A stretch of DNA of 64,000 nt from positions 28,916,253 to 28,980,252 of the forward strand of contig CM040087.1 of assembly GCA_022496805.1 (NCBI GenBank), written 5' to 3'. Made by a program: the position numbers and the translations under genes. Source of the stretch: Pohlia nutans (lineage: Eukaryota > Streptophyta > Bryopsida > Bryales > Mniaceae). Below the pieces are notes generated by a model, which saw only the letters and a program-made list of their open reading frames with translations, made no database searches and was not told where the DNA came from. Within the stretch, counting starts at the first letter, position 1, and the number at the start of each line of letters is the position of its first letter. Below are positions 37,104 through 64,000 of the stretch, piece by piece.

Positions 37104-37419
37104 GGGAAAAGCTATTACGTGAACAGTGAGCAGTGAGCAGTGAGCAGTGAGCAGAGATTTTTGGAAAAATTTCGAGGTGTTGGATTTTAAAGGACCTCCT
37201 ATTACCGCGGATTTAGGTGTAATTGGTGAGTATTTATGAAACATTGATTTGTGAAAAGTACCTATAGCCGTGGAATTTAGGGTGTATTTTTAGGGTTATT
37301 AGTGGAATTTAGTAGCTTCTAACAACAATTGCTTGTTCCTAAATCTAACAGAAATGCATTCAAACTCGTTATAGAATCAAGAAATGATGTGGAAATAAAT
37401 AAATACTCAAACCGTACAA

Positions 37420-39262
37420 TCAAAGTGAATCTGTATCAGATTTGATAGCACTCACATCGACATATGAAAGCACACGAGGATCATAATGTCGACGCGGTGT
37501 AGAATAGCATGAAGAACCACTAGGGCTAGGACTAGCATTGGCAAATGCTGTTGCCAATGCTTCTACGTACACTGGAAGTCCTTGAGGGGAACTATCAGGG
37601 CTGACCAAACTCTGCAAGGACTTTCTAAGGTTAAAACGGCGCCGCTGTAGTGGTCTAGTCCTTGTCAAACTGCAAACAAGAGAAGTGTAAAAGTATTAGA
37701 AAACGTATTTAGATGAAGATGTACTAACTAGTATTTGCAAGGTTCTTTAAATAAACATTGAAACTTACTCACATGGACAGTCAAGGGGCTCGTCAGGAAC
37801 GGTCACATAATCGGAATCAAGAACCTTCATTATAGGATCCATAACGCTGGTGCCAAGCATCCAAAGCTTCTCAAGCTTCATCTCTAGATCTTCATCATGA
37901 GACTCATAGTGATACTTCACTTCCTCAAGAAAAGGTATGGTGTTGCTGGGATCAGCAACAGGCAGCATCTTCTTCAACTTACCCTTGTAATGAACTTTGG
38001 TTTTCTTCACAGCCCTGTGCACCAGTTCCTCAAGTCTCTTAGCAGTCTAATCTTCTGGATTAGGATATCTCTCATAAAATCTCCTCTGAGCAACGGCGGT
38101 TGCTTCTCCAATCTCTTGTTGCAATAGGAAGACAAAACAATTAAACAGACATTAGGAAAGAACTAATTGCCAACATTATACACAAACTTCAGCAGTTAAG
38201 TGACGGTTATACCTGATTGAGAAAAGCACTGAGAGAATCAACAGTCAATGAAAACCACGTCTGGCTTTTGTCACCCTTCTGTTTCTGATCAGAGAGTCGA
38301 AGGTCCTTAGGTGGCACAAATGATTTATAATATGAGAGAAGTTGAGCCCCAATGGTTTTAACTCGATAGAGTTTATGGACAAGGTTGGAAGTCACATGAG
38401 ACTTTTCATTTCTCTTGATAAATCAAATACATTTGAATTAGTCTAGTTATGAAATGATACACAAAAACTGCATAAAAGCAAAGTTAATCAGTAATAGAAA
38501 TCGTACCAATTCACTTTGTGTAGAGCAGTGAGCATCTTGGGTACATCTCCTTTCACCTCCAGGATGATGCTATCAACTGAGTAATGCCATCCAAGATCAT
38601 TTGGATGGTCCTGATTTATGATTGGCATCCAAGCCTGGACTCTATGGTTTCCATCCCAAATATGAAACATCTTCCCACAGAACACATTGAGGATGGGATC
38701 TGCAGCAAGCATGGATTCGAACTCATCGTTGACACAAACCCAATGGTGACTCCAAGATGATTTAATTTCAGGAGTGACATCTTTAGTCTTACCGTCGTTG
38801 TCCTCAGAGGCCACATAGAATACACCGTTACCTTCCATGTATCCATTTTTGATAAAATGGGATGTCAGCTTCATGACATCGTTTTTGAGAAAAGGTCTCA
38901 CAACAGGAAGACATACCATTCTACACAGAGGAATTAGCAAGCGGGACTTGTGACGAGGTTGGAACCGCAGTCGTTCAATTTGAGATTGTGTATTAGGGGT
39001 CTCACTCAAGAGAAAAGAGTTTAGCTGTGAATGAACGTCCCTCTCACTCAACCGCCCACCTTCCGTACGTTCACCAAGGTCAACAAGATCACCAAGGTCA
39101 CTAGAATCACCTTCAAAATAATGAAATTCTAAAATTTAGTATCTCAAAGGTAAATAATAAACATGCAATGTGATTTATCATAATGATAGATTAGCACCTT
39201 CAAGGTCTTCTCCTTCATTTTCTTATATTTCACCCTCTGTATCCAATGGAAATTGATCTATC
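37420..39262 (-). pseudogene. ParB-like accessory protein of Mutator-like element 1
   Basis: Minus-strand blocks at about 39262-39198, 39110-38507, 38410-38216, 38140-38030 and 38030-37765, plus a last block at 37668-37420, match in order the exons of the gene at 62441-64000. The conserved core is PLCRMVCLPVVRPFLKNDV ... WVCVNDEFE ... HIWDGNHRVQAW. Both copies have the second-block donor at the same codon phase. The VRP...DGNHR layout resembles the ParB/sulfiredoxin-like fold, but this is inference. Stops occur in the first block (near 39228) and the fourth (near 38048), so this copy is probably dead. It reads toward the left end of the element, divergent from the transposase. Confidence 0.55.
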
Positions 39263-39411
39263 GGGACACCCAAACGATGTAAGCATCTGAGCACTGACTA
39301 CATATTAACCCAATACCACGTGTAATCTATGGTACACGATATCCACATTGAATTAATAAAACGTGTGATCTCCAGTACACAACGTCCCCATTGAATTTAA
39401 ACAACGTGTGA

Positions 39412-42400
39412 ATTATGAGCTCACACAAAGCCAGCATTTTAGAGTTAAAGAAAAAATAAAATTGACCTCCCAATAGAGAAGCCGGCACCAGTTGGGTCAA
39501 GCCCTGCCATCCACAGGTGTTTAGAAAACGTGATGAGCTCACACAAAGCCTGCATTTAAGTGTTCAAAAAAAATTAAACTAACCTCCAAAAGGGAGGCCA
39601 ACACCGGCTGGGTCAAGCCCTGCCTTCCACTAGAGTTTAGAAAACGTGATGACCTCACACAAACCCAGACTTTAGTGTTATAAAAACAATTAAAATTGAC
39701 CTCTACAAGGAAGGCCCGCACAGGCTGGGCAAGCCCTGCCTTCCACTGGTGTTTAGAAAACGTTATGAGCTCACACAAAGCTAGACTTTCATGTTCAAAA
39801 AAATTTTAAATTGACCTCCCAAATGAGAAGCGAGCACCAGCTGGATCAAGCCCTGCCTTCCACTGGTCTTTAGAAAACGTGATGAGCTCACACAAAGCCA
39901 GCATTTCAGTGTTCAAAACAAATTAAAACTCACCTGCAAAAGGCAGGCTGGCACCGCCTGGGTCAAGCCCTGCCTTCCAGTGGTGTTTAGAAAACCTGAT
40001 GAGCTCACACAAAGTTAGACTTTAATGTTCAAAAAAAACTTAAAATTGACCTCGAAAAGGGAGGCCGGCACAGGCGGGGTCAAGCCCTGACTTCCACTCG
40101 TTCTCAAAAAACGTGATGAGCTCACACAAAGCCAGCATTTTAGTGGTTAAAAAAATTAAAAGTGACCTCGAAAAGGGGGGCCGGCACCGGCTGGGTCAAG
40201 CCCTGCCTTCCACTGGTGTTTAGAAAACGTGATGAGCTCACACAAAGCCTGCATTTAAGTGTTCAAAAAAAATTAAAATTGACCTCCTAAAGGGAGGCCG
40301 GCACCGGCTAGGTCAAGCCCTGCTTTCCACTGATGTTTATAAAACGTGATGAGCTCACACAAAGCCAACGTTTTAGTGTTCAAAAAGAATTAAAATTGAC
40401 GTCCAAAGTGAGGCCGGCACCGGCTGGGTCAAGCCCGGCCTTCCTGTGGTGTTTAGAAAACGTGATGAGCTCACACAAAGCCAACATTTAAGTGTTACAG
40501 AAAAATTAAAATTGACCTCCAAAAGAGAGGCCGGCACCGGCTGGGTCAAGCCCGGCCTTCCACTGGTGTTTAGAAAACGTGATGAGCTCACACAAAGCCA
40601 ACATTTTAGTGTTACAGAAAAATTAAAATTTACCTCCAAAAGAGAGGCCGGCACCGGCTGGGTCAAGCCCTGCCTTCCACTAGTGTTTAGAAAACGTGAT
40701 GAGCTCACACAAAGCCAACATTTAAGTGTTACAGAAAAATTAAAATTGACCTTGAAAAGGGAGGCCGGCACCGGCTGGGTCAAGCCCTGCCTTCCACAGG
40801 TGTTTATGAAACGTGATGAGCTCACACAAAGCCAACATTTTAGTGTTCAAAAAAAGTTAAAATTGACCTTCAAAAGGGAGGCCGGCACCGGCTGGGTCAA
40901 GCCCTGCCTTCCACAGGTGTTTATGAAACGTGATGAGCTCACACAAAGCCAGCATTTTAGTATTCAAGAAAAATTAAAATTGACCTTGAAAAGGGAGGCC
41001 GGCACCGGCTGGGTCAAGCCCTGCCTTCCACTGGTGTTTAGAAAACGTGATGAGCTCACACAAAGCGTGCATTTAAGTGTTCAAAAAAAATTAAAATTGA
41101 CCTCCTAAAGGGAGGCCGGCACCGGCTAGGTCAAGCCCTGCCTTCCACTGATGTTTATAAAACGTGATGAGCTCACACAAAGCCAGCGTTTTAGTGTTCA
41201 AAAAGAATTAAAATTGTCCTCCAAAGTGAGGCCGGCACCGCCTGGGTCAAGCCTGGCCTTACACTAGTGTTTAGAAAACGTGATGAGCTCACACAAAGCC
41301 TGCATTTAAGTGTTCAATAAAAATTAAAATTGACCTTGAAAAGGGAGGCCGGCACCGGCTGGGGCAAGCCCGGCCTTCCACTGGTGTTTAGAAAACGTGA
41401 TGAGCTCAAACAAAGCCAACATTTTAGTGTTACAGAAAAATTAAAATTTACCTCCAAAAGAGAGGCCGGCACCGGCTGGGTCAAGCCCTGCCTTCCACTA
41501 GTGTTTAGAAAACGTGATGAGCTCACACAAAGCCAACATTTAAGTGTTACAGAAAAATTAAAATTGACCTTGAAAAGGGAGGCCGGCACCGGCTGGGTCA
41601 AGCCCTGCCTTCCACAGGTGTTTATGAAACGTGATGAGCTCACACAAAGCCAACATTTTAGTGTTCAAAAAAAGTTAAAATTGACCTTCAAAAGGGAGGC
41701 CGGCACCGGCTGGGTCAAGCCCTGCCTTCCACAGGTGTTTATGAAACGTGATGAGCTCACACAAAGCCAGCATTTTAGTATTCAAGAAAAATTAAAATTG
41801 ACCTTGAAAAGGGAGGCCGGCACCGGCTGGGTCAAGCCCTGCCTTCCACTGGTGTTTAGAAAACGTGATGAGCTCACACAAAGCGTGCATTTAAGTGTTC
41901 AAAAAAAATTAAAATTGACCTCCTAAAGGGAGGCCGGCACCGGCTAGGTCAAGCCCTGCCTTCCACTGATGTTTATAAAACGTGATGAGCTCACACAAAG
42001 CCAGCGTTTTAGTGTTCAAAAAGAATTAAAATTGTCCTCCAAAGTGAGGCCGGCACCGCCTGGGTCAAGCCTGGCCTTACACTAGTGTTTAGAAAACGTG
42101 ATGAGCTCACACAAAGCCTGCATTTAAGTGTTCAATAAAAATTAAAATTGACCTTGAAAAGGGAGGCCGGCACCGGCTGGGGCAAGCCCGGCCTTCCACT
42201 GGTGTTTAGAAAACGTGATGAGCTCAAACAAAGCCAACATTTTAGTGTTACAGAAAAATTAAAATTTACCTCCAAAAGAGAGGCCGGCACCGGCTGGGTC
42301 AAGCCCTGCCTTCCACTAGTGTTTAGAAAACGTGATGAGCTCACACAAAGCCAACATTTAAGTGTTAAAGAAAAATTAAAATTGACCTCCAAAAGGGAGG

Positions 42401-43460
42401 CCGGCACCGGCTGGGTCAAGCCCTGCCTTCCACTAGTGTTTAGAAAACGTGATGAGCTCACAAAGCTAGACTTTAGTGTTAAAAAAAATCAAAATTGACC
42501 TCTAAAAGAGAGGCCGGCACCGGCTGGGCGAGCCCTGCCTTTCACTAGTGTTTAAAAAACGTCATGAGCTTACACAAAGCCAACATTTTAGTATTCAAGA
42601 AAAATTAAAATTGACCTTGAAAAGGGAGGCCGGCACCGGCTGGGTCAAGCCCTGCCTTCCACTAGTGTTTAGAAAACGTGATGAGCTCACACAAAGCCAA
42701 CATTTTAGTGTTCAAAAAGAGTTAAAATTGACCTTCAAAAGGGAGGCCGGCACCGGCTAGGTCAAGCCGTGCCTTCCACTAGTGTTTAGAAAACGTGATG
42801 AGCTCACACAAAGCCAGCATTTTAGTATTCAAAAGAAGTGAAAATTGACCTTCAAAAGGGAGGCCGGCACCGGCTGGGTCAAGCCCTGCCTTCCACTGAT
42901 GTTTATAAAATGCGATGAGCTCACACAAAGCCAGCATTATAGTGTTCAATATAAATTAAAATTGACCTCCAAAAGAAAGGCGGGCACCGGCTGGGTCAAG
43001 CCCCGCCTTCCACACTTGTTTAGAAAACGTGATGAGCTCACACACAGTCAACATTTTAGTGTTAAAAAAAAATTAAAAATGACCTCCAAATGAGAGGCCG
43101 GCACCGGCTGGGTCAAGCCATGCCTTCCACTGGTGTTTAGAAAACGTGATGGGCTCACACAAAGCCTGACTTTAGTGTTAAAAAGAAAATTAAAATTGAC
43201 CTCTAAAAGGGAGGCCGGCACCGGCTGGGCAAGCCCTGCCTTTCACTGGTGTTTAGAAAACGTGATGAGCTCACATAAAGCCAGCATTTTAGTGTTAAAA
43301 AAAAATTAAAATTGACCTTAAAAATGGAGGCCGGCATCGGTTGGGTCAAGCCCTGCCTTCCTTTAGTGATTTGAAAACGTGATAAGCTCACACAAAGCCA
43401 GACTTTAGAGTTCAAGAGAAATTAAAATTGACCTCCAAAAGGGAGGCCGGCACCGGCTGG
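39412..43460. repeat. 117-bp satellite array, about 35 copies
   Basis: Units repeat every 117 bp, for example the CGTGATGAGCTCAC words at 40461, 40578, 40695 and 40812. Each unit holds the palindrome TGAGCTCA and the near-palindrome GCCGGCACCGGC, joined by an A-rich stretch. Since 117 is a multiple of three, both strands show long repetitive open frames (39-residue periods), which are by-products. From about 40560 to 42360 the pattern also repeats every 818 bp (seven units), as with the TAAAATTTACCTCC variant at 40624, 41442 and 42260. Confidence 0.95.
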
Positions 43461-43827
43461 GGTCCTGAAGCTGCTATGACAAGTTTTTGAGTTTTCAAGT
43501 TTGACGCTGCTGGAGCTTCATCGAGGTGTAACATTTGTAATTTTTGGAATCTCGGAGCGTGTAATATACCGTTGGAAAGGTCTCAAAATTACCTTTCCAA
43601 TGGTATATTATGAGCCCTTAAAATTGATGTGGGGTCGGCCGGCACCGGCTGGGTCCTGAAGCTGCCATGACAAGTTTGAGAATTTTAAAGTTTGACGCTG
43701 TTGGAGTTTCATTAAGGTGTAACAACTGCAATTTTTGGAATCTCGGAGCGTGTAATATACCGTTGGAAAGGTCTCAAAATTACCTTTCCAATGGTATATT
43801 ATGAGCCCTTAAAATTGTTGTGGGGTC
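43445..43827. repeat. 191-bp tandem duplication with a strong hairpin in each copy
   Basis: Two copies start at GGCCGGCACCGG (43445 and 43637) and a third start is seen at 43828. Each has TAATATACCGTTGGAAAGGT pairing with ACCTTTCCAATGGTATATTA around a 9-base loop (43562-43610 and again near 43753-43801), 19 of 20 bp matched. The GCCGGCACCGGC word links it to the adjacent satellite. Confidence 0.8.
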
Positions 43828-43849
43828 GGCCGGCACCGGCTGGGGTCCT

Positions 43850-45040
43850 GAAGCTAGTCTTGGGAGAGGGTGGCCGGTGCAAGGGAGAGGGTGGCCGGTA
43901 GCGGACAGGGCCATGACGAGAGCCACGACCATCACAACGAAGAGGATAATCACCACAAGGACATGGAGAGGGTGGTTGGCACCGGCTGTGGTACGATGAA
44001 CCTCGACTTTTATTAGGGCCACGACCATCACGTCAACGAGGATGATCATGACAAGGGGCATGGGGAGGGTGGTTTGTGCCGACCATGGTGCCAAGTGCTA
44101 GGGCGACGACGACAACCCCGGCCATAATGACCTTCAGGGTGATCACTACACAAGGACTAGGAATACCAGGTCCAGGGCCATCAGGAGGGCCAAGGCGAAC
44201 ACGATGACGAGGATGATTACGATGGGGTCAAGGACCAAGGGCACAATGACGAGGGAGATTTCCAAGACCACGAAGTAGGTGGCCGGCACAACAAATATTT
44301 CAAAATTTCTTGTGCATGAGTTAGTGCGCAAGAATTTTAGGATTGTACCTTGTTGCACATTGTCCTCTACCTACACCACGACGTTGAGCACCACCACAAA
44401 ATCCAACGTCGTCTCATTCTCTACTTGCACGCTTTGTGCCTCCTCTACTCTTCCCTCCTTATTTGCCTCAATGTCCAGGACCTCTTTGTCTGATGAAATC
44501 TCTATTTGGGACATTCAAGGCACAACCTAGTAATACCTTAGTTCATGCATCTGCACAATCAAGATCTCATTCGATAGCAAGAAATTGCTCTAGAGCATGC
44601 AATTAAAAATGCAAACCCTAAACCCTGATAATATCACGAGATTAGAATCTAGGAATGACTATACGGAAAGAGCACAGTCAAGGCAATGAAGAAGACGAGG
44701 GCTACTACAAAGACAACAAGAGCGAAGGTGACGGTCAGAGCATGGCGAAGACGATGGTTAGGGCCACGGCGAAGACGACAGTAAGGACCACGGCGAACAA
44801 GACGTTTAGGCGACGGCAAGGACAAGGACGGCCAAGGCAAAAACGGCAAGGGCGAAGACAACCAGGCCGATGAGGTCGGACACAACCAGGACAAAGACGG
44901 TTTAGGGTTTAGGCGACATTGCCTGACAGGGTCACCTCAAACACTACAACCATGGTGAGGACAACGAGGACATGAGGGAGAGGGCCAAGACGATGGCCTG
45001 AACAAGGGCTTGGATTTAGATTAGGGTTGAGGTATGAGTG
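43850..45040. other. Low-complexity GAC/AAGGAC-rich DNA in Mutator-like element 1
   Basis: Imperfect repeats of GACGA, AAGGACA and GGCGAAGACGA words fill most of this stretch. Open frames are repetitive by-products. A short minus-strand acidic frame at 45282-45064 just beyond could be a first exon of the ParB-like gene, but no splice link is visible. Confidence 0.4.
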
Positions 45041-45527
45041 ATACGAGAACTTAAAAATGATACTCAGGATAGAGAAATAAGGTTGACAGAATTCACCTCG
45101 ACATCTTGCTTCTCTTCCTCGAAATCGCTTTCCCCGTCTTCACTAATAGAGGGTCGATTGCTTTGTTGTGAAGTCTTGTATGACGGCGTCTCCTCCACGG
45201 TCTCTGGAATCGACTGCAATCCTTGCTCAGTGACAACGTTGCCATACTCCAAGACCCTTGCAGTGTACATAGACCCTTCCAATTGTGGTCTATCTCTGAA
45301 GACAACAAAGGCACTATAATATTATCCATTTCTACATACCCTACATCTAAGAGTACTAAAACACGGGTTCTTCCAGAAAGGCAGATCTAGATTTTAGCGC
45401 TCTTCTCTGAATATAGTTGAAGTGGGCACTACCTCTCAATTTGCATTTAAACAAATTTTCTCAAGTGCTCGATCTCAATCGATATTGCATAGAATGTTTT
45501 GAGTTTGTATTGCTTCGGGAATAGATC

Positions 45528-46420
45528 ATGGCATTCATTCGAGTCGAAGGTGCAGGCATTCCTACATCCTTCCCAAGAGGGGACGATGGATTTGCATATG
45601 TCTCTGCGTTTTGTTTAAGTTTGACATTTCAGTTTCTCGCAACAACGGTGCACGTAGATGAGGACGTCTTTGATTCTGAGTCTGATCAACTTACGCACAC
45701 CGTTAGGCAGCTCTCAACAGTTACAGAAGATGGAAAAGTCTTCTTGCTTAGGCCGGGTAGATATAGAGCTTACAGTCTCATGGATTGCTTTATGGGCACA
45801 TCTACCAAACTTTTGACTCCAAGAGAGTCATCCACTTGCACTATACAAACAACAGTCCTAGCTTGCGTGAAAATTGAGCCAGGCTTAGAGACAATTTATA
45901 AACTCAATGACGATGAAGTCCCACAGAATGTAGATCATGATCTTATTCTTCCTCCTCAGCCTAATCCTCAATCTTGAATCTTCTGCACGCAGCTGTCCGT
46001 CCACCAGTAAGCTGCCCACCCCGCTTTGTCTGCCTGCAAATCATAATGTCTTGGAGTGCCTGAAATTGCTATTGGATAGAAAGGGCTCTAGGAATATGTT
46101 CAAGAAGTTTGACTACAACTTTACATCTATCAAGCGAGTTGTGTTCTTCCCGCCCCAGTACAATGGAGATGTCATCTTCAAGTTCCCTTTGTCAACTTCC
46201 ACAGCGCGAGGCCATATCGCCGCGAAGGCTCTTCCAAGACCACTGTCTCTCCGTCGACTTGTCAACATATGTAACCCCAATTTTCCCAGCTAAAGTTCCC
46301 AAACGACGTCATGGCAAGAATGTCCGCCGCAACAAGAAGAGCCCATCCATCAAGCCCACAATTGTGCCAACGCTGCAGCATTCAAAGGTTGCATATTATT
46401 TACGAAACCCTAAACCCTAA
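45528..46420 (+). pseudogene. N-terminal part of Mutator-like transposase, element 1
   Basis: The first 149 codons from the ATG at 45528 match the first exon of the transposase at 55734-59526: HTVRQLSTVTEDGK, LLRPGRYRAYSLMD and TKLLTPRESSTCTIQTT, then VKIEPGLE. After a stop, 46000-46300 continues in other frames with CLKLLLDRKGSRNMFKKFDY and YNGDVIFKFP. The rest, including the catalytic and SWIM parts, is missing, and the element end follows within 400 bp. This copy can therefore move only if a complete enzyme is supplied. The function of this N-terminal region is unknown. Confidence 0.65.
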
Positions 46421-46820
46421 ACTCTAGTATTTTTTCTATCTTGTACCCAAACTGGTCTAAATGCTAAACTTGCTATGCATTTCAAATAATTATGCCCAAA
46501 CAAGTGGATGGGCCCCTAATAAGACACTGAAATAACAATCTCCTTTTACCTAAAACCGCGAACTTGGGTCTAATTACCACGGATATAGAGACAGAGTGTG
46601 CCTTTAATGTGCCTTTACCCCTGAACCACTGACTCAAAACACAGTAATAGGTACCAAATATTCCACGGTCATAGGTCCAAAAATTTACTAAAAATATCAA
46701 AATATTCGAATATTCACTAATTATAGTGTTGTTGACCACGGTTGACCTGAAATTCTTGCTCGTAATCCCACATTTCTCCGCTCACCGCTCCCCGCTCCCC
46801 GCGCGCATACTATCCTCGTC
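46421..46820. other. Right terminal region of Mutator-like element 1
   Basis: This is non-coding and AT-rich with AATATTCGAATATTC-type words, then the inverse of CCTATGACCGTGG near 46645. GAGCGG microrepeats (as CCGCTC) run at 46785-46805 and the end CATACTATCCTCGTC at 46806-46820. The same features in the same order follow the end at 55203. Confidence 0.65.
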
Positions 46821-49800
46821 CCCTTGGTTGTCACACATGATCGTTGTAACCTCACCTTGTGTGCAACCCACATCGACCATTAGTTGCCTCAACCAAATGG
46901 CTTCCTTCGTGGCATGGCTCGTAGCCATGTACTCGGCCTCCACCGTTGATGTCGCCGTCGTTTGTTGCCGCTTGCTATTCCACGACACCGCTCCCGATCC
47001 GACCTTGAACATGTAGCCCGTTGTCGATCTTCGATTGCTCGTGTCTCCCGCGTAGTCCGCTTCGCAATAGCCGCTCAACACAATGTCTTTGCCGCCAAGA
47101 CACAACTTGACATCGCTTGTGCCCTTCAAGTAGCGCATGATCCTCTTGACCGCCATCCAATGCATTGAGCCCGGTCTCGCCATGTGTTGACTCACCACGC
47201 TAATTGGATACGCGAGGTCGGCCCGTGTCGCAATCATTGCATACATCAACGACCCCACCGCTTGCTTGTATGGCACCTCCGCCATGGATTTGGCCTCCGC
47301 CGCATACTCCTCCTCCGAAAGCTTGACGAGCTTGGAGTTTGCATCCAATGGTGTTGCCACGGGCTTACAATCCTCCATCCCGAATCTCTTGAGCACGTCC
47401 ATCACATACTTGCTTTGACTCATGGTGATAGTACGTATAGCCCTGTCTCGCACAAACTCAACACCAAGACAAAAGTGCAATTCTCCAAGATCACTCATCT
47501 CGTACTCTCTCTCAAGCATGCCTTTTAATGCATTCATTGAACTCATGAGGCTTGCAAGAATGATCAAATCATCAACATATATGATCACAATCACCACATG
47601 TTGTCCCTCTTGCATGAAGTAGAGACTATGATCCGCAATACTCCTAGTAAACCCGTTTGCAAGCAAGAACGTGTCAATCTTTTGGTACCATGCTCTTGGA
47701 GATTGTTTCAACCCATACAATGATTTTTGCAACTTACAAACAATGTGCTCATTACCTTGTTGCACAAAGCACTCGGGTTGAACCATGTAGATGTCCTCCT
47801 CCAAATCGCCATTCAAAAATGCGGTTTTCACATCCATTTGATGCATTTCCAAGTCCATGGCCGCTTCAATCGCAAGAATGCATCGAATGGTGGTGAACTT
47901 GGCCACAGGAGCAAACGTCTCCTGAAAGTCTACCCCATGCACTTGCGCAAACCTCTTGGCTACTAGTCTTGCTTTGTGACGCACCACATTACCCGAAACA
48001 TCCCTCTTTGTCCGAAACACCCATTTGCAACCAATGGGGTTGCGATCCTTTGGAATGGGAGTTAATTGCCACGTACCATTAGCAATTAGAGAGTCGTACC
48101 CCTCTTGCATGGCGCGCTCCCACTTGACCGCATCCTCACCTTGCATGGCTTCACGAATGGTCAATGGACCATCCGATAATGCCACATTTGCATGCTCGTC
48201 ATCCTCTTGAGAGAAGATGTGATTCTTCCACCATCCTCCAGGTGGCTTGAGCAATCTCTCGGGGTACCGCCGCTCACTTGAAGAAATTTGCTCCTCTTGC
48301 GCGTCCTTTGCGCCATTCTTGGCCTTTGAGCTCGATGGCGCTTCAACAACCTCCGTGTCACCATCTTCGTCATCACCGTCCTCATCACCTACATCAACAA
48401 CACTAGGGGACTTGGTGGGTGTGTCCACCAACACGTCTCCACTACTCCCACTTGGACCAACCTCCAAAGGAGCCTCCATCGTAGACTCCTCACAAAACGT
48501 CACATCACGTGACCAAATGATCTTCTTCGTGTCCACCGACATGAGTCTATACGCCTTGGTACCTTCACAATACCCAAGAAACACACACTTTAAGGCCTTA
48601 GCCTCGAGTTTAGTCCTCCGTTCGTCGGGAACCTTTGCGTATGCAATGCATCCAAAGATGCGCATGTGTGCAACACATGGTTGCCTCCCACTCCACGCTT
48701 GCTCCGGTGTCATGCCTTCAACCGCGCTTGTTCGACACCGATTGCGAGTGTACACCGCATTCACCACCGCTTCCGCCCAAAGGTCCAACTTCAAGTTTTG
48801 AGCGTGCAACATGCTCCTCGCCATCTCTACAATGGTGCGATTTGGGCGCTTCGCAACTCCATTTTGTTGAGGTGTATACGGGGCCGAAGTTTGGCGTGCG
48901 ATGCCTTCTTTCTTCAATAGCTCGTCAAACTTCGTGGACATGTACTCGCCGCCATTGTCCGATCGAAACACCTTGATCTTCATCTCGGATTGGTTCTCCA
49001 CCAATGTCTTGAACTCCTTGAACTTGTCGAAGCACTCACTTTTGGCCTTGATTAGGTAGAGCCAAATCTTCCTTGAAAAGTCATCGATGAAGGTCACAAA
49101 GTACTTGCAACCTCCTATCGACGTGGTCTTCATTGGGCCACACACAACCGAATGCACGACCTCCAAAACTTTTGTGGCCCGTGTCGCCCCTTCACCCGCA
49201 AATGGCAACCGTTGTTGCTTGCCTTCAATGCAACCTTCACAAGTGAATGAAGAAGCATCCACTTTCAATTAATGAAGGTCCATACCACTTACCATGCCGC
49301 GTAGTGTCTTCACACTCTTGATGTTCATATAGCCGAGTCGACGATGCCACAACGCCAGCTTGTCGTCCTTCAAGTTTGAATGCGCCAACGCCGCCGATTC
49401 CTTGGAATGCACCTTCGAGAACTTGATGTAGTACAAGCCCTCGTGTTCTTCAATGATGGCCACCTCATCTCGACTCGGTGACAACACATAACAGCCCTTA
49501 TCACTAAACTCAACCCTCAAGTGCTTTGCCACTAATTGCCGCACCGATAGTAAATTTGCCGTTAATTTGAGAACGTGGAGGACATATTGGATAGTGATTG
49601 TCTTCACACGACCCCTCACCTCGGTGTCTACAACAAGTTGGCCTTTGCCAATGGCCTCAAGCACCGTATCATCTCCCAAAATCACCCTCCTTGGGTTAAT
49701 GAGAGCATACGAATGAAAACAAGTTTTATGCGGTGACATGTGGCTTGTAGCCCCCGAATCAACAATCCAATCACTCGTAATACCATTGCACGATACATTG

Positions 49801-51485: not shown

Positions 51486-51742
51486 TATTGAAGGTAAGAG
51501 ATGAGAGCACAAGGCACACACACACACAAGGAATGCGTAGAAAGAGATGATCTTTACTCAAAGGCCTTCCACCTTAAGTAGTGTACACTAGGGGGTCACC
51601 ATGGACAAACCATATGGGATAACTCATCACAAGGACACTCTAGAGATCAGCCCATGCCTAACCCCTCTTCCCACACACCATTATTTAGGACCCGAACCTC
51701 TTTGGCTCCTAGCAATACTACCGTACATCAATTACCTCAATA
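51486..51742 (-). repeat. copia 5' LTR
   Basis: This is the upstream LTR of the minus-strand copia element, 257 bp, differing from the 3' LTR at four positions by my count (about 98.4 percent identical). Its outer edge is followed by GTTGG, the target duplication. Confidence 0.85.
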
Positions 51743-52115
51743 GTTGGAGACGGTCTTGGATGGCCGAGGACTGCAGTAATGCGTGGGCACGAAACCATTC
51801 GCGTTCTTCGTCGGTGACCTGTAAGTCCTCTTCGGTAGCTGCTAGATTGTGGAGTACCAAGTCGAAAGATGGCCTCTGCCAAGTGGATGAGTGTGGATGT
51901 CGTGCAGTTTGGAGTTCTCGCGGGGTCGATAATTCGTCCTGCGTGAGTAAAGGTTGAGGCCGTCGTGTCGGATGAGTGGCTCTTGAGGGAGCTTGGAACA
52001 TTGGTGACGGTAGCAAATCATGTACGCTCCGGTGCATGCGACCGTTAAAAATCGTGAGAGCCTCGAGGTCGAACTCGGGCGGTGGTCCTGCAGATCTAGT
52101 GTGGCGCCGGGCCAT
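51743..52115 (-). pseudogene. gypsy family B gag, N-terminal part
   Basis: From the ATG at 52115 the frame reads MARRHTRSAGPPPEFDLEAL and continues through a charged region (TDEEREWFRAHALLQSSAIQ) to the copia insertion point. It rejoins 36603 and below after removal of the insertion. This is the disordered N-terminal region of gag. An alternative upstream in-frame start near 52208 is a TTG and less likely. Confidence 0.65.
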
Positions 52116-52286
52116 GGGAAATTCTGGTCTATTGAAGTTTTGGACAACCGGACTGAATGATTTCGGTACGACAGAAAAAAGGCGCGGTGTCACACAGATG
52201 CTAGGCAATAATAGAGTACTGGGATCCGTAACTCTGTGTTTTTAAGCAATGGAGTTCTAGAATTCGAACACTAGATGGTCGCCAAA

Positions 52287-52698: not shown

Positions 52699-54599
52699 AT
52701 CTCCTTCTTTTGGTCCAACACAAAGACTGCCAGCTTATCGCCTTCCTTCCGGCATCGCTCCACTTCCTTCCGGTTCTGGGCCATCTCCTTCTTCAGTTTC
52801 CCGACTAGATCCGGATACTGGCCCACCTTTGTGCTCTTCAGGGCGCTCCCAACTCCCTACATCGCCACGTGGAGCAAACGGTACCGCCTCGCAACTGCAT
52901 CAATGGCCTCCCTCACCGAGTGGAGGAAAGCTTTCTTTGGTTCAGCGAGGACCGACACTTCCTCTACTGCCTCCCGGATTGGCTCCTCCGCCCGGTCCTC
53001 CACCTCTTTCGGGCCATCCTCCTCCGGTCTCAACCCCCTCCACCTCTTCACCATCACCTTCACGTTCTTCTGGCAGCGGCAGGTCCCTGGTCTCGAGTCA
53101 TCCCAGGAGCCACGACCATTTACCCAGGTCGTCTTCATTCGGGTCTGTCTTTTTTTGAGGAGGGCTGAGGATCTGCGTGTCATCCTCGTCATCCTCATCA
53201 TTGCTCCGGATGATGGCTTTCCTCTTCTTCTTCAGCCCCCGGGTGCACTCTCTGGAGGGGCCCCTCTCATCCCGTTCCTCCCTATCATGTTCCCCCTGCC
53301 CCTTTCGCTGCTCAACCGGATTACCTCTTTCTTCCTTGTCCTGCTGGGACGCTTCCTAACCGTCCGGCGCGCTCCGGTCGCCCTGCTCGTCCACGCTGCC
53401 TCACCCATCCGCGCTTGCGTCCTCGTCCGGGTTCTCCTCGCCTCCTGGATTCTCCGCTCGCTTCTTCGCTGGGTTTCGGTCCACATGTGCCGAGCGCTTC
53501 TCCATCGGCACCCTCTCCCTGCCCGTGAGGCATCCAAGGTGGGAGTACAAATGGTAAACAAAAGGGGTCGGGGGACACCCTTTTGCGCCCCCAATTTTGA
53601 GCGCCTCCTTCTCTACGAGCTCGTGGACGATAATCCCCCACCCGACCTTCTTTTCGTGCAGGTAAGCCGAGTAGATACACTTCGCCAACTTGATCACAAT
53701 GGTGGTGGGCTTATCCGAGCTGAGGATGGGCACCAAACATTTGAGAAGGGGCCTCTCCCAGTTGATCCGGCGGTTGATCACCCGGAATCTCTCCTTATCC
53801 GAGAGCTTGGTGAACCGGTCCTTCACCCAATCCGAGTCCCCCTTCTTCTTGTCGAAGCTAAATGGGTTAGTTGGGAACCGGTATGTGGTGCGCCTGTGCG
53901 CCACTGTCCTGTTCTTATGCTTCCCCCAGATTTCACTATCCCGAAATTCCTCCTTCACACGTCCTCCGGCCAGCTCCTCCAATAATCCCGTATCCTAGAT
54001 GTCCCAGGGCATGTACAACAGCTCCTCGCACTCAATTTTGATCACGTCTTGGCGCAGCTAGTCCAAATGCTTCGGGTCCTCCAGAATGGTCGGGGCACCT
54101 GATTCTCCGGGATCTCGATCCCGAACGCCCACTCACTCTTCTACACCATCGTTACTCACTCCGGACGCGCTACTCTACTGACCCGCACGATCCGCCTTAG
54201 TCTCCGGCTGCCACGCTGCTCTCTCTCCGGTCGCGCACTAACTACACTAACGCAAACCGGAAAGACAAAAACCTGTCGCTTAGCAGGCTAGGAGAACTGC
54301 GCTGAAATGAACAATGGGTCGCCCAATTTAAGGCTGCCGATTTCAATGCGCGGATCGCGGCCGGGTCTGTCAGAGACCCGTCCATTTCTACCCGGTTCCC
54401 AATCCGGTCGCTAGGCCTAGCGAAAACCCGCCACCAACCCGGATCCTAAAAATCGCTCTAAGTCGCACGCCAGCGCCACTTCTCTCAAAATATATAAATG
54501 AGCCATTATGGCCATTCCTCCTATTTATGGCGGTTCTGGCTATTCCTAGCTACCCTAGAGACCCTCACTGCCTACCTTTGAAAAAAACGAGGTTCGACA
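52699..54599 (-). mobile_element. gypsy family A fragment: LTR start plus ORF-X
   Basis: The minus strand starts with the LTR word TGTCGAACCTCG at 54599, and a TATA-like stretch follows near 54490. ORF-X is homologous to 29340-31000: WGKHKNRTVAH, then YRFPTNPFSFDKKK, LVPILSSDKPTTIVIKLAK and TPFVYHLYSHLGCL (53982-53570). An acidic linker and a coiled-coil part (VGKLKKEMAQNRKEVER, near 52800) follow. The frame is cut at 52698 by the family B LTR. The upstream part, before 53990, has several stops. The product is unrecognised. Confidence 0.65.
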
Positions 54600-54905
54600 G
54601 CTCACTAATTTCTCTTCTTCCGGGTAGCTGTTACTTCTTCTGGTAGTGACTACCAAGCAGTCATTTACAACGAGGAGCTACCAGTAATCCGATCTCTTTT
54701 TGTATGAAATTTTTGTTTCCTGTGCTAAACTGTAGATCTTGTGTACTTCTGTTGTAGATTAGGGTTTCAGACATTTGGGGTTTGTAGGGACAGTTGCGGG
54801 AACAATGCAGGGACAAGACATGGAATGTACTGAGGTAGAGGGTTTTCGGGGCAAAAGTAGTGATTCTTTCCTTTAAGGAAAATTCTCCTTCACGACTCTA
54901 TCTTT
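54600..54905. other. Short non-coding spacer
   Basis: I see nothing recognisable in these ~300 bp between the family A LTR and the SWIM fragment. Confidence 0.4.
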
Positions 54906-55202
54906 CAAAAGTCGCCTGCTCAAGTTGTACATGCTTCTTGCACCTGCCCTAGGATGCATTGTTACCTTTGATTGCAACATACCTCCCAAAATTCAGCAAC
55001 ACCACTTGACAATTTCTCAGCTACCTGTTTGCACATGCCTCAACTTCAGGAGAATGGTGACCAAAGTACTTGGGAAGCGTGGACAGTGGGTCAATTGTAA
55101 GCATCTGTATTACTCATTCAGTCATTTGTGGTTTACACTCTAAAACCGATACATTCATGCACGCTTCAAGTTTTAGTTTCAATGAAGTGAAGCGTGTTTT
55201 AG
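54906..55202 (+). pseudogene. SWIM zinc-finger fragment of a Mutator-like transposase
   Basis: The frame gives MLLAPALGCIVTFDCNIPP, then CTCLNFRRMVTKVLGKRG and VNCKHLYY. This is a complete SWIM pattern (C-x-C-x17-C-x-H). After a frameshift it continues DTFMHASSFSFNEVKRVL. It matches the C-terminus of the minus-strand transposase at 55734-56060. It is cut off exactly where the element end at 55203 begins, so the second element probably inserted into an older relative. Confidence 0.65.
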
Positions 55203-55733
55203 GACGTGTCTACTATGCGAGCGGTGAGCGGAGAGCGGAGAGCATAGAGCAGAAATAAAGCGAGCCAAGAGCACAAATTTGGGAACATAATTTATAAATA
55301 GAAGTTTTTTTTACTAATTTTAGGAGAATTTTTCAGAATATTTGAATATTTCGAGGAATAATCTTTTATTAATAGAATATTTGAATATTCGTATATTTAT
55401 AGAAAATAAAATTGACCTATGACCGTGGGCTGAAACGTGGTAAAATGGCATTTGATTTACACTTTTCTTTCAACCGCATGATTTTTTTTTTTCGGGGTTT
55501 ATTGCATATTCCATCAATTTTCGGTTTAGGGTGTCCTCAAAGCTGTGAGTGACCACATACACTTTTTTGGAAGTTGATGCAGTATACAAAACTTTAACAT
55601 GTGACAAAGAATTTTCATATAATAATAGATAGAAAAAACCTTATATTGCTGAAATCGTCAGATAAGCCTGGAACAGAAATGGTAGGTCATTGGATTCCAT
55701 TGAATGTACTATGGGATACTTTTATAGTGACTC

Positions 55734-58700
55734 CTACTTTTCAGCGAAAGGGTGAGTCAAGATCCCAGTTTCAAGGACCAGTTTGACTTCGTTGAAGCTG
55801 AACGTTGGCGCGTGGATGAACATGTCAACCCAGGGATCGAAATGGCAGACCTTCAAGAAGATGAAGTACACATGCTTGCAATATCGAATTGGCGATTCCC
55901 ACGGAACTTTGTCATTGTCTTCTTGAATGCAGGGCAGCTGCAGCCTGGTAGGGAGCTTATTGTGATCTGATACTGCTTCACATTTGGTGGCGTTCCCGAG
56001 TCTAGAGCGATGATGCAGCCATAGCCAGGGTGAGGAATCATTGTCACAGCATAGAGTCGAGCTTTCAGGGACTCAGAAGAGCCCAATGCCAGCCTCTCCT
56101 GCGGATTTGGGCGGCCAGTAATTCGCTTGACGATCTTCCCTTCTCTTTTTCCTGGATACCTATCCGCGTCTGCAGATACGGGCACCGTGTCCAGATTTGC
56201 GGGAGGCTTCTCTGTGGAAAACAACCTTCTTGGAGAGACAGGGGCTTTCTGCGGTAATTGGAACCCAGCAGCTTCGAGGGCAAGGATCTCACTTTGCTTG
56301 AGGTTTGTTCCAAGCTTCACTGGCCAGACATTAGGGATGGTGGGCCTCTCTTGCTGCCTAGAGTACGGAACTACCCACTTCCGCCTTGAACCTTTGACAC
56401 ACCTCTCGATATCATCCGAGCAGAAGTAGAACTCCTCCGACACTTGTAAGTTCTTCCTAGTGTTGTGCCATAGACCGGTGTACGTAGGCGCAGGGGTGGG
56501 TTTAGCACCCCTTACGATTCTCTCCGAACACTTCTTCTTAGTAACAGCTCTTTGGGCCCAACAACACTTACCTGAATTCTTTGCCAATCGAGCAATGTGC
56601 CACTCCTTCACGTTAACTCTGGTCTCCTGAACACAAGAGACGTGACGAATCTGTCTTTGACTACGTGGAGAAGGAACTCCGTCGTCGCCTTGCGATAAAG
56701 AAGGTGCAACTTCGAGGACGTTGGTTTCATCCTCCTCAGCTATCACTGACATGTGAGCGGTGCGCACTTTGGTTTTTCGGCCACAGCCACGAGGATGCGA
56801 GAAATTTACCTTATCCGGCCTGTGTGACTCATCGTCAGCTCCAACTGGCAAATCCGGCCTGCGCTTCATGGAGCCAAACACTTCCTCTCCAGCCATGTGA
56901 GGATCACGTGTACAGAACTTGTCCGCCCCAGGCACGTCGAGCATGGGGTCCTTCAGGACCTTGGGGTCACCTGTTTTTTGAGCCCTACGCTCAGCCATGC
57001 GAAGTTTGAGCTCTTGTTTGCTTGGTCCAGTTCCCTCTATATCGCCCTTCAAATACTGGTAGTAATTGACGACTTGCAGAAAAGCGCGGATGTAGTCATC
57101 CACTGTAGCAACATAGAGATCACCACCGTTGTTGCCGGACGCTTGAAGCCACTTGTTATGGATAGACTTTGCAAGATTGCACGACGCCATTTCCGCGAGT
57201 TCTTCCTCTGAAAACATCTGAAGAAGTCATGTGATGAGAAGTTAGCCAAAATTGGTGGTCGGGTCCGACTCATGAGTAGACTGTAAGGGCATGGACCTAA
57301 AGAAGTCATGTGATGAGAAGTTAGCCAAAATTGGTGGTCGGATCCGACACATGAGTAGACTGTAAGGGCATGGAACATGCAACAAAGGACATGGGTACTC
57401 ACCCCGACCATAAATCCTCCCCAATGGCGATAACGGAAGTGCCAAAATGCTAGCCACAGCTCAAGTTTGCTCAAGGCTGACTCGGTCAAAGCCTCGGCGG
57501 ATACCCACCATGCTTTAAGTCCTTGATACAATCTGTCAGCCTCGGCCATTGTTTGAGCCTTCCTGTATTGGTGACACATTTGTTTGTGTTGGTCCCACAG
57601 ATCTTCAGCGATGTATTTCTCAGTATGCTTCACCATGGACTGGGTCCAGTGAAATTGACAAGTCCGCTCACGGTCGTCCATACGTTCCTCCTTGTTGCCG
57701 CACCCATAGACAACCCGGACAGCGTTCCAGTTGGCTTGGGCACTGTCTGCCATGAAGCCTTTGAAGTTAGGCATGTCAACACCGTGTCGCTTCATCACAG
57801 CGTTGAGATTCTTCCAGAAGACCATTTGGGCATCAACGTCCTCCGATTGCATGTCGCAGCAAGCAATAGTCATGACACGGCAGTAAGTGGAGTCATAGAC
57901 ATGGCAAGCCATGGTTGTCCACTGCTTGACTCGTTTCACATGATCAAACATCAACAAGGCGTGCTCAAGATCACCATTGGGTTGCATTCGCTTCACTAGG
58001 TCCACCCCACTGCCAGGGCCTACTTCAGACATCTTGAAGACGTACACCTTGTCTAGCTTGGAACCTAGGCCAGGGAACATGTTCATTTGAACAAAAGCCC
58101 AGTTGCTAAGGCCTCGCAATCTAGTGATATTGTCCATGACGCCGTACCTCCTCAAGTACCTGAAGGTGACAACCTTATTTCGAATATTTGGTGAAGCCAT
58201 GTCTTTGCATCGATCCAGCACCGGAACTAGTTCCTCAAAGCTCAACGTCTTGGGCGGATCGTCCTCGGACCTCAACAAGTAGCCTCCGATGAGAGTCTTG
58301 CTTGCCTCTAATACCACTGCACTCTTTGTCGCTTGCGGAGTCTTCTCAACCTGATCTCCAATTAGACTGCTGATTTCGACTTTGGTGTCCCTATAGTCAC
58401 CAACCTTAACAGGATGCTCGTGAGATCCAAGGTGGATACAAGCACGAGTTCTGTTATGCTTGCCGGACACATAGTAGATCTTTGCTTCACAAGTGGCAAG
58501 ACAGGAGGGCGGTTCCTTACACACTTTGCACACCACGGTGGAGCCTCTAGGAGGACCGTGGCCCACAACAAACGCTTGCAGTGTGCATCCATCAAACTCA
58601 GTCTCGTTCACTTCATAGATGCGATGTTCTCGTCTGAAGTAGTCGCACTCTTTATTCTCACATCGCAGGTGCCCTACACAGCTGGAGAATCGTAATGAGA

Positions 58701-59526
58701 GACCCATAGTATTAGTAATGTTAGATGTGATGGTCTTGGTCCAAACATGGCCATCGTAGCGCTTATCCATTCCTTGCATAGCCTTTGCCTGTGATCAAGA
58801 GGCGGATGCTTCAGCAGGAGGCAACTCAAACATGACATCACCGTTGAACGTCGAGGGCAAGTACGTGACTCTCTCATGTCTAATGGAGCTATAATCAATC
58901 TTCTTTAGGACGTTCTTCTTCCCTGGCATATGGGCAAGTTTCTTTAGACATGCAACGACACTATCGCACTCATTAGAACCCGGTGATGGAGAAGTACGAG
59001 GGCTAGACGAGGCACAGACAAGCCGAGTTGTATTTGGAGGACTAGTGTCTTCATCTGACGAGAGGGTAATGATGGGATTAATTGATCGCGGCTCGACTTC
59101 AATATTTTCAAGATGAGGATTCTCTAACCCAGGCTCGACCTTGACCACTACATTGGAAGGAAGGGGGTTCTGAACGGTGCAAGTGGAGGAACGACGAGGT
59201 GTTAGGATTTCTGTAGATGCAGCCATTTGGGAATCCGTCAATCCATAGACTCTATACCTTCCAGGGGCAATCCTCCAACTTCTACAATTATTGTCGTCAG
59301 AAATTGATAGCTGACCAACTGTGTGACAAAGCTCAGACGTGAGGTCATCAAATATCTCTTCCTCAACACTAATACTGTCTTCCTGGAAATTGAAACGAAG
59401 ACTCAAACGTTGACACGACACTAAAGCATATCCTTCCCAGTCCACAAGAAACGTGAGTGGGAGACCTACGCCATGAGCTCGGAGCACGACCATATCTGGC
59501 GCATCAAGCACGGAGGGATGAGGCAT
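55734..59526 (-). pseudogene. Mutator-like transposase with SWIM finger (one TGA, one frameshift)
   Basis: The first exon runs from the ATG at 59526 to 57403. An in-frame TGA at 58797-58795 splits it, and the relative in element 1 lacks a stop there. A GT-AG intron (57402-57218) follows, then an exon from 57217. Domains in order: a unique N-terminus (PGRYRVYGL, STCTVQN, VKVEPGLE), a Cys/His-rich part (LRCENKECDYF, CKVCKEPPSC, IHLGSHEHPV), and a MULE-like core with GFMADSAQANWNAVRVVYG and CQFHWTQSM. A helical part and a basic linker precede the C-terminal SWIM finger, CSCPAFKKTM ... YCKHVYF. A one-base shift near 55890-55910 separates the two SWIM halves, and the frame then ends with a TAG at 55734. 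The protein would cut and paste the element. The damage is slight, so the loss of function is recent or doubtful. Confidence 0.65.
57221..57380. repeat. 80-bp tandem duplication in the transposase intron
   Basis: AAGAAGTCATGTGATGAGAA begins at 57221 and again at 57301, and the copies stay nearly identical for about 75 bp. The duplication spans the 3' end of the minus-strand intron, so the CTTCTT-type acceptor region exists twice. Confidence 0.85.
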
Positions 59527-60259: not shown

Positions 60260-60279
60260 AATATCAAAACTCACACGTT

Positions 60280-61400: not shown

Positions 61401-61409
61401 GTGTTCTAC

Positions 61410-61600
61410 GAGACACACGATGGCAAGTGTCGGGTCCGACGCATGGCAGCGCCAGTGACGTGAGTGCGAGACACACGATGGCAAGTGTCGGGTCTGACGC
61501 ATGGCAGCGCGAGTGACATGGGTGCGAGACACACGATGGCAAGTCTTGGGTCCGACGCATGGCAGCGCGAGTGACGTGGGTGCGAGACACACCCAGCGCG
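61410..61600. repeat. 58-bp tandem repeat, three full copies plus a partial
   Basis: GAGACACACGATGGCAAGT begins at 61410, 61468 and 61526, and a truncated unit at 61584, giving a 58-bp period. Each unit includes GTCGGGTC(C/T)GACGCATGG. Confidence 0.9.
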
Positions 61601-62200
61601 AGTGACGAGGGCAGGGAGTGTATGAAATGCGAGGCAGGGAGTGGTTGAAATGCGAGGCCATGGACTGCGTGTAATGGGAGGCAGGGAGTGCGTGAAATAC
61701 GAGGGCAGGGAGTGCGTGAAATGGGAGGCCAGGAAGTGCGTGTAATGGGAGGCAGGGAGTGTATGAAATGCGAGGACAGGGAGTGCGTGAAATGCGAGGG
61801 CAGGGAGTGTATGAAATGCGAGGCCATGGAGTGCGTGAAATGGGAGGCAGGGAGTGGTTGAAATGCGAGGCCATGGACTGCGTGTAATGGGAGGCAGGGA
61901 GAGCGTGAAATACGAGGGCAGGGAGTGTATGAAATGCGAGGCCAGAGAGTGCGTGAAATGGGAGGCAGGAAGTGGCTGAAATGCGAGGCCAGGGAGTGCG
62001 TGTAATGGGAGGCAGGGAGTGTATGAAATGCGAGGACAGGGAGTGCGTGAAATGCGAGGGCAGGGAGTGTATGAAATGCAACGACAGGGAGTGCGTGAAA
62101 TGCGAGGGCAGGGAGTGTATGAAATGCGAGGGCAGGGAGTGCGTGAAATGCGAGGCAGGGAGTATGTGAAATGGGAGGCAGGGAGTGCGTGAAATGGAGG
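61600..62200. repeat. ~24-bp minisatellite, about 25 copies
   Basis: Units of GCAGGGAGTG plus (C/T)(G/A)TGAAAT(G/A)CGAG recur every 23-25 bp across about 600 bp, with variants at fixed positions. The minus strand reads as repeating SHFTHSLP-like peptides through more than 350 codons, a by-product of the repeat. Confidence 0.9.
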
Positions 62201-62440
62201 CAGTGCGGCGTCACGAGTGAAGAGAGTACGAGGGCAGGGAGTAACGAGAGTGCAATAGGGCAGGGAGTGATGCCAGACAAGGGGTGAGTGACGCTGGGTG
62301 AGGGCTAGGGCATGTGGGCCATGGATTTAAAGAGGTGTGTGTGACCAAGTATTGATTGGGTCATACCGTGTGATTGGTGCTTTTGATGTTTACTTCTTAG
62401 TGATGTCAAAGTTTGTCAGAATCTATTCCAGGTTCCAAAG

Positions 62441-64000
62441 ATGAGGAAGGAATCTAGAATTTCCTCATCCAGCACCACAGTTGGGGACTCCCAGAGCCAA
62501 GGGACCAGTGTCGAGGACGCGATGGACTTGGACGTAGTGCAAGCAACGCAAAATGTTGGTGAAAACGCAGCGCGTGTCAATGAACGAAGCCAAATCGTTT
62601 TAGACTCCCAGTCGTGTGAGAGTGGGGACTCTGAGTCGGAGGATGGAAGGAGGGGCTCTGGAGATGGTGACGGAGGCCGCTCTGAAACTCGTGATCGAGG
62701 CAGTCCTCAAGCTGGTGATGGAGGCAGTTCTGCATTGCCTGCTGGAGGGCACTCGCAAGCTCAAGATGGTGACGGTATGGCTGCTGCTGACGGTGCATCT
62801 TCGAACGATGTTTTGGCAGTCTCGAGTGTTGAAGGGGCATGTGAAGTCGTCACTGACAGTATCGAGAATGGATGTGGTGGAGCTGACAATGGTTTAGAGT
62901 CACTGCCCCCTTTGGAGCGAGCCCGTAGACAATTCATAGGCCTCACAAAGGCAGGGGATAACGTGCACGCGGGCTTTATTCATGGAGACTTGTACAAGCT
63001 CATAGAGAAAATGAGGAAAAAACCGCATTCTAAGGGCGTTCTCAAAACTCCCCTATGTCGTATGATTCACATGCCAATGGTAAGACCAACGCTACGTTGT
63101 GATGTAGTGAAACTCATGGGTGCATTTCGCTATGGCTACAAGCCAAATTCAGCTGCCATGTATGTTTCTGTTACCAATGACCAGGGCGAGAATCGACTGG
63201 TAACTCAAGCAGATATGGATGAATGGAACCCATGTTGGGTTCAAGAGAACGAAGCATTTGAGGAGAGGCTTCAATCTGATCCTGACCTCCAATGCTTGAG
63301 TGGCTCAATGTTCTTTGTGTATGACGGGAACCATAGACTTCTGGCATGGAAAGAGGTGATCGAGACTCTGCATGGCGATGATCAGCAATGGTACACAAAG
63401 AACGGAAATCCAGAGTGTGTTGTGCTTGATACCGCTGGAGGCCGTGGAGACATTCTGAGTGCCATGCACAACATAAACTCGTAAGAATCAAAACCCCATA
63501 TGTAGCTATTGTAAGTTGCTTGAAAATGTTGACTATTAAAATCTGGATTGAGCTCACTTGATGTTGTTCTTCTACAGCTCTAACCAAACCGCTCACGTGA
63601 AGACAACTTTGGTGCACATTCTTCACCGAATCCAAAAGTATGGGTCATATGACTTAGAGTACTATAGGCCCATACTTACAGCAGAGCAATTCAAGGCCTG
63701 CCAGACGAAATCAGTGAAGACTTGGTACCCACTTACACGAGATCTAATGGTGTACTTCATCTTCAGCGTAAGTCATTACATTTTCAATACCTTATTTCAA
63801 TAGGACTTTCTAGTTTGATGGACTACATACAAGTCAGGATAAGTTTTGACAATTGGAATGATTGTACAGGACGAAATTGTCCAGGTTGCTAATGAGGCAA
63901 GGCAGATGTACTGGGAAGAGGTGAAAGTGAGCATTCAAAGTGATGGTGGCCTGCAAGAATATGTTGACAAGGCCATCTCCAAAAAGAAAGAAGAGCTCTA
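62441..64000 (+). CDS. ParB-like accessory protein of Mutator-like element 2 (3' end outside window)
   Basis: Exons at 62441-63480 (donor TC/GTAAG), 63578-63767 (acceptor CTACAG, donor GC/GTAAGT) and 63870 onward join in frame. The first ~155 residues are disordered, rich in Ser, Asp and Gly. The conserved core has LCRMIHMPMVRPTLRCDVVK, then WVQENEAFEERLQSDPDL and VYDGNHRLLAWKEV near residue 300. The C-terminal exons are helical and charged. About 30 percent of residues are shared with the homologue in element 1 by eye. The VRP...DGNHR layout resembles the ParB/sulfiredoxin-like domain, which in relatives binds nucleotides or DNA. That function is inferred here. No stop or frameshift is seen, so it is probably intact to the window edge. 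The exact start may lie upstream, since TTCCAG/GTTCC just before the ATG looks like an acceptor. Confidence 0.6.

Follow-up and report, generated by a model that had tools for sequence, protein, structure and literature searches.

The DNA analyzed here, referred to as the window, is a 64,000-nucleotide stretch of a eukaryotic genome (Pohlia nutans; positions 28916253-28980252 of contig C3 in assembly G000, which comprises 697.8 Mb in 332 contigs). It contains two copies of a transposable element with two divergently oriented genes, one for a transposase (gene A) and one for a protein with a DGNHR motif (gene B). An earlier note on this DNA had proposed, from these two copies, a Mutator-like family with a ParB-like partner protein. 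The coordinates, the ends and the divergent gene order of that description stand, and the DGNHR gene reads away from the transposase gene in both copies; however, gene A of copy 1 is only a remnant, and both copies are broken. Samples of the whole genome also support a two-gene element with a ParB-like partner, with amendments to the domains of B and to the Mutator label. We interpret the element as a many-copy eukaryotic DNA transposon of about 18.5 kb, both ends included, in which A encodes a DDE-like, SWIM-ended transposase and the divergent B a ParB- and methylase-like accessory protein, and we give this reading a probability of roughly 0.7.

Copy 2 extends from 55203 to beyond the end of the window at 64000, and no right end was found within 10 kb past that point. 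It opens with its left terminus (55203-55260, plus strand; GACGTGTCTACTATGCGAGCGGTGAGCGG...). Gene A runs from 59526 to 55734 on the minus strand and is interrupted by one in-frame stop and one frameshift. Its N-terminal part (58795-59526) ends at the stop, which occurs neither in copy C3_446 elsewhere in the genome nor in protein relatives. It is followed by an exon with a Cys-His cluster and a DDE-like core, the core being named by eye (57403-58794), and by exon 2 (55734-57217), which has a SWIM-like CxCx(n)CxH end and the frameshift near 55900, at a site where the reading frame is open in another copy, C18_1057. Gene B, on the plus strand, consists of exon 1 (62441-63480), with the ParB/Srx-like core at 62981-63480 and a phase 2 donor, exon 2 (63578-63767), with a phase 0 donor, and exon 3 (63870-64000), which runs on past the window. 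Between the genes lies a 24/47-bp tandem array (61606-62203), and within the gene A intron a 79-bp unit is tandemly duplicated (57221-57374). A piece directly left of the copy 2 end (54901-55201, plus strand) shares 42-54% identity with the SWIM end of gene A (E 2e-17), and copy 2 thus appears to have landed in an older relative.

Copy 1 (37104-46820) is, judging from the window sequence, an internally decayed element nested in the RNase H region of a copia element. It is flanked by an 11-bp direct target site duplication, CCCTTGGTTGT, at 37093-37103 and 46821-46831, and it splits its copia host (36609-51745), whose 260-bp long terminal repeats are identical at 255 of 260 positions. As these repeats are still 98% alike, copy 1 arrived after a fairly young copia insertion. 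Its gene B, on the minus strand, comprises exon 1 with the ParB-like core and the sequence IWDGNHR (38509-39135), exon 2 (38213-38412, by eye, its start approximate), a stretch (37846-38061) matching residues 306-372 of the gene B homologue on an outside contig, L001, and a weakly matching last exon (37447-37635; E 1.8e-4, where a noise-like match at another place in the window reaches 9e-4). This gene is interrupted by at least one in-frame stop, and the methylase-like part of B described below matched nowhere in the window, copy 1 included. Gene A is a plus-strand remnant (45528-46392) made up of a frame-shifted N-terminal part and a short piece of exon 2 (46193-46348; 38% identity, E 3e-5), and neither the DDE core nor the SWIM end was matched within copy 1. 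With gene A reduced to a remnant, and gene B interrupted by a stop and showing no match to the methylase-like part, copy 1 was probably mobilized in trans. A 117-bp tandem array of 34.7 copies (39415-43461) lies between B and A, so that the intergenic place holds different arrays in the two copies.

The left terminus of copy 1 (37104-37165, plus strand) contains GTGAGCA heptamer repeats, and its right terminus (46760-46820, minus strand) matches the left terminus of copy 2 in a 41-bp alignment and, subterminally, over a further 62 columns or so, with a score that none of 500 base shuffles reached over either 60 or 320 bp. The two ends of copy 1 match each other over 23 bp only, and shuffles did as well in 0 of 500 cases (60 bp) and 9 of 500 (320 bp). 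AGCGGTG-like units are abundant in the termini. The best 10 B loci in G000 were read in detail, and both ends were located in three of them. In C3_446 the ends lie 18,488 bp apart within an 11-bp duplication, CATTGCTTGGG; in C15_1085 the duplication is 10-11 bp (by eye), and in C18_1057 it is ambiguous because the flanks are a short tandem repeat. The sequence ATGCGAGC[AG]GTGAGCGG is common to both ends of C3_446 and of C18_1057 in inverse orientation, and these are therefore terminal inverted repeats. The duplications of copy 1, C3_446 and C15_1085 agree with the 8-11 bp of Mutator-type insertions, and both genes lie between the ends of the duplication-bounded unit in C3_446.

Across the genome, 40 of 1,024 candidate A copies and 40 of 120 candidate B copies were scored. 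Within 25 kb these form 15 A-B pairs, all 15 divergent, where random placement would give 0.11. Together with C3_446, this is the outcome, on samples, of the genome-wide search for two-gene copies that the earlier note had suggested. Of the 17 B copies with ≥97% identity, 13 have a scored A within 25 kb, nine of the best 10 B loci have A or part of it upstream, and among five lower-identity B copies whose 3-kb upstream piece was read, four have A in divergent orientation; B is thus not found mostly outside the elements. Among the 25 unpaired A copies, six were read for 8.6 kb upstream; three of them have B at that same position and reading divergently, one is an internal deletion without B, and two show no B. 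With 15 of 40 A copies paired and three of six sampled unpaired ones still carrying B, the transposase does not, in these samples, routinely occur without its partner. Among the 120 x 120 listed database homologues of A and B, two coincidences on equal-sized contigs are seen where 0.30 are expected (2% of 400 shifts give as many), a suggestive result that is superseded by the linkage in G000.

Identity of the ParB core separates the window's family from A_C6 and from A_C15_482 with A_C2_210 (80-86% between families, 96-98% within); the A_C6 core has one stop. The ratio of nonsynonymous to synonymous change (dN/dS) of the ParB core in the other copies against the window is 0.115, 0.109 and 0.121, at dS 0.59-0.86. 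For the methylase exon, compared with C3_446, it is 0.189 and 0.213, and a third, remote pair is saturated. The comparison of B between copies that had been called for thus gives low ratios between families, though not within the window's own, and gene B is under purifying selection between families. These ratios, and the same place and orientation of B in three families, bear out the view that B has been kept as part of the element rather than captured once. In a separate comparison, the methylase exon of C3_446 (L021 and L022) is 91-93% alike in DNA to those of L035 and L036, while the ParB exons are only 78-82% alike to those of L032, L035 and L036; with the methylase exon more alike between families than the ParB exons, it is as if the two halves of B had different histories.

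The gene B protein, of about 1000 residues, appears from its sequence to consist of a ParB/Srx-fold N-terminus with DGNHR, a middle part and a methylase-like C-terminus, the fold being predicted for the N-terminus only. The proteins of copies 1 and 2 are 36% identical over 160 residues (E 2e-29 against the window). In both copy 2 and L001 the first donor is in phase 2 and the second in phase 0, and by eye the same holds for copy 1, confirming the conserved exon order and first-donor phase that had been reported for the two copies. Database searches returned 728 homologues at E ≤ 5, of which the 120 listed show identities of 36-98%; this suggests that gene B is not confined to one odd family. 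DGNHR is present in 113 of these 120 and DGNRR in one, in keeping with a GxxR motif, and six are without. A usable structure model of the N-terminus was obtained from a 97-sequence alignment; a model from 22 sequences was discarded (pLDDT 42). The predicted structure supports the proposed ParB/Srx fold. Its best structural match is a nucleotide-binding ParB, and the list of matches includes several phage ParB-fold proteins named ParB-like nuclease and one phage "DNA methylase". Sulfiredoxin has its catalytic Cys within a GGCHR-type motif; this Cys is not in gene B, where Asn takes its place in DGNHR. Pfam, NCBIfam and PHROGs gave only weak or chance matches to gene B (DndB in 4 of 97 sequences, best 0.0059).

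In eight of the best 10 B loci the ParB-like region is followed by a C-terminal half that resembles N6/N4 DNA methyltransferases; of the other two, C2_927 has part of this half and the window copy ends before it. The description of B as a ParB-like partner is therefore right about the fold and is amended to ParB-like plus DNA-methylase-like. The same arrangement is seen on L001, a 4,691-bp, apparently intron-bearing contig filed under a Synechococcales (cyanobacterial) metagenome-assembled genome, of which it is probably a eukaryotic contamination. Its B relative (31% identity over 269 residues, three exons) runs on into an N6/N4-methylase-like part, and a short fragment of it scores 27.5 bits with PF01555 (cut-off 26.7). 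The methylase-like part from G000 matches a solved adenine methylase, presumably of Helicobacter, at E 2e-5, and a two-sequence profile matches it at E 4e-4; CcrM and an N4C methylase are weak matches. Searching phages with the methylase domain yielded weak matches only (best E 0.05), and scans with gene A, gene B and the methylase part found no relative in a set of viral contigs that may omit records near this genome. Five of the eight family copies that fully cover the long methylase exon have it open, and the preceding exon is open in six of seven. Stops in these exons mostly differ between copies, with two recurring sites (C3_446 with A_C6; C18_1057 with A_C2_210). On L013 (2-3983) a second B homologue lies upstream of another B copy, 42% identical in the ParB part and with a methylase-like part of its own that carries the motif DMPEGLPVP.

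The core exon of gene A has 304 homologues at E ≤ 0.001 and a conserved Cys-His cluster. By eye, the residue order D...E...D...CxFHW resembles that of transposases of Mutator-like elements (MULEs). Transposase_mut is detected in one of 31 gene A proteins (E 0.034), and the SWIM match in an open gene A copy has E 0.0078 and 16.2 bits, below the cut-off of 19.6. The ends, the duplication length and this sub-threshold match make the element Mutator-like in anatomy. As the MULE profile PF10551 does not detect the transposase, we keep "Mutator" as a description of anatomy only and leave membership of the superfamily open.

Several observations weigh against our interpretation. PF10551 finds none of the 31 gene A proteins at E ≤ 1, no coincidence is seen by eye between the 40 scored A places and the 150 scored PF10551 places in G000, and hhalign of the gene A profile against three resident MULE frames, with very shallow profiles, gave nothing. 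Stops are present in both window copies and in C3_446, where gene A has an early stop in exon 2 and gene B one stop in each of two exons. The spliced gene models were made by eye, and the 3' end and last exons of the L001 model are uncertain. Foldseek gives no match with E ≤ 0.001 for the gene B domain (best PDB 0.093). PF01555 stays below its cut-off with a longer L001 piece (24.8 bits) and with G000 sequences (20.8 and 21.2 bits), and L001 alone matches solved methylases at E 0.05 only. Methylase motif IV is canonically [D/N/S]PP[Y/F/W]; here it reads D-[LMIV]-P-[DEH]-x-LPVP in all 13 sequences (12 and L001), which represent about five lineages since eight belong to one family, and DPPY is absent. 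Within the window's family the ParB core shows few changes and a dN/dS that is not low. Finally, for four of the 17 close B copies, no scored A lies within 25 kb.

These last four copies, and locus C2_5030 with no A within 6 kb, would be expected if A and B were two independent repeats lying side by side by chance. Such an explanation is scarcely credible for two genes that sit inside the ends of one duplication-bounded unit and whose 15 pairs are all divergent, and it is rejected on these grounds. B might instead be a host gene fragment that one element captured and copied along passively, as a Pack-MULE-like passenger. Capture is frequent in Mutator-like elements (PMC6446971), and the drift of copies within a family, with little sign of constraint in the ParB core, is what a passenger would show. 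The placement of B in three families and the low dN/dS of their ParB cores at dS 0.59-0.86 lead us to reject capture as well; the intron phases shared by copy 2, L001 and (by eye) copy 1, and the 728 homologues, also make it very improbable.

The similarity to the Helicobacter adenine methylase, the weak likeness to CcrM and an N4C methylase and the purifying selection on the methylase domain between families are consistent with a catalytically active B, a DNA methyltransferase that would mark the element with N4mC or N6mA. We consider this unlikely given D-x-P-[D/E/H] in place of DPPY in 13 of 13 sequences and a motif I that reads D..[AT][AS]TG in most pieces covering it (DWHAATG in one) rather than the canonical DPFxGSG. 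Slightly less probable still is a nuclease or nickase acting in excision or end processing; the phage proteins named ParB-like nuclease point that way, the best structural match is nevertheless a nucleotide-binding ParB, and a separate nuclease motif was not noticed, no search having been aimed at one.

In the mechanism we favor, A would cut and paste the element, with presumed catalysis by the DDE core named by eye, leaving the 10-11 bp duplications observed at its ends. B, whose probable ancestor is a ParB-methylase gene of a prokaryote or phage, may use its ParB-like domain to bind the DNA of the element, perhaps clamping onto the repeat-rich ends, and could protect or reactivate the element against host silencing or assist transposition. 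As it has lost the aromatic residue of DPPY, it would serve as a reader or scaffold and not as an ordinary base methylase performing amino-methyl transfer. By analogy, the function of B is most likely DNA recognition and anti-silencing; we prefer this because repeated sites are where ParB clamps load and the termini here abound in repeats, and because anti-silencing or DNA-modifying partners occur in other transposons as well. Other possible roles are active methylation, nicking of the ends and assistance with integration. A more speculative idea, which we consider unlikely, is that a bacterial-type fusion of ParB clamp and DNA methylase belongs to the standard kit of this eukaryotic transposon, in which B loads on the terminal tandem repeats as a nucleotide-switched clamp, spreads along the element, and blocks silencing or writes an unusual DNA mark; if true, a eukaryotic nucleus would be host to ParB-like spreading.

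In bacteria, ParB clamps serve segregation, and eukaryotic nuclei seldom contain DNA N6/N4 methylases. A ParB-like N-terminus joined to an N6/N4 methylase C-terminus with the canonical DPPY is the plan of ParB-domain DNA methylases in prokaryotes and phages, whereas gene B is spliced, eukaryotic, transposon-borne and without DPPY. A transposon with a fused ParB-methylase-like gene under between-family purifying selection offers a natural, testable system for self-recognition and host silencing. Second genes in such elements are already known, as in maize MuDR (mudrA and mudrB), Mutyl (mutB) and Hiun (vanB and vanC), which share with the present element a transposase plus second gene, 9-11 bp duplications, terminal repeats and SWIM (PMC6446971). 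None of their extra open reading frames (ORFs) is named ParB-like or DNA-methylase-like in the available part of that source, and the present element also differs in that PF10551 does not detect its transposase. VANC of VANDAL/Hiun elements is an element-encoded protein that counters silencing (PMC6446971, PMC12730594); an anti-silencing role for B would follow from analogy, not from sequence comparison.

Fungal transposons bearing TET/JBP genes (Kyakuja-Dileera-Zisupton and others) are likewise DNA transposons with a DNA-modification-type gene (PMC12730594), where the partner is a dioxygenase instead of a ParB-methylase-like protein; the duplications given in that source are 8 bp for Zisupton and 7 bp for Kyakuja, unlike the 10-11 bp here. 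Oomycete MULE/Harbinger elements with a SET methyltransferase also carry an epigenetic enzyme, in their case one for histones and not DNA, and a ParB domain is not mentioned in the available parts of the two sources (PMC6446971, PMC12730594). A ParB-like or ParB-methylase partner of such an element was not met in the open-license PMC literature, as far as its accessible text goes, in line with the earlier note, whose author knew of no Mutator-like family described with a ParB-like partner. Within that scope, the new part is the ParB-methylase-like partner with its C-terminal half. The element offers a parallel to VANC and to the TET/JBP transposons of fungi, and it may reveal how a transposon recognizes or labels its own sequence.

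Outside the elements, the window holds two ORFs, at 29535-30257 (plus strand) and 53401-53994 (minus strand), that look alike by eye (EFRDS[KE]I..., VPILS.DKPTT...KL) and are perhaps pieces of another repeat.

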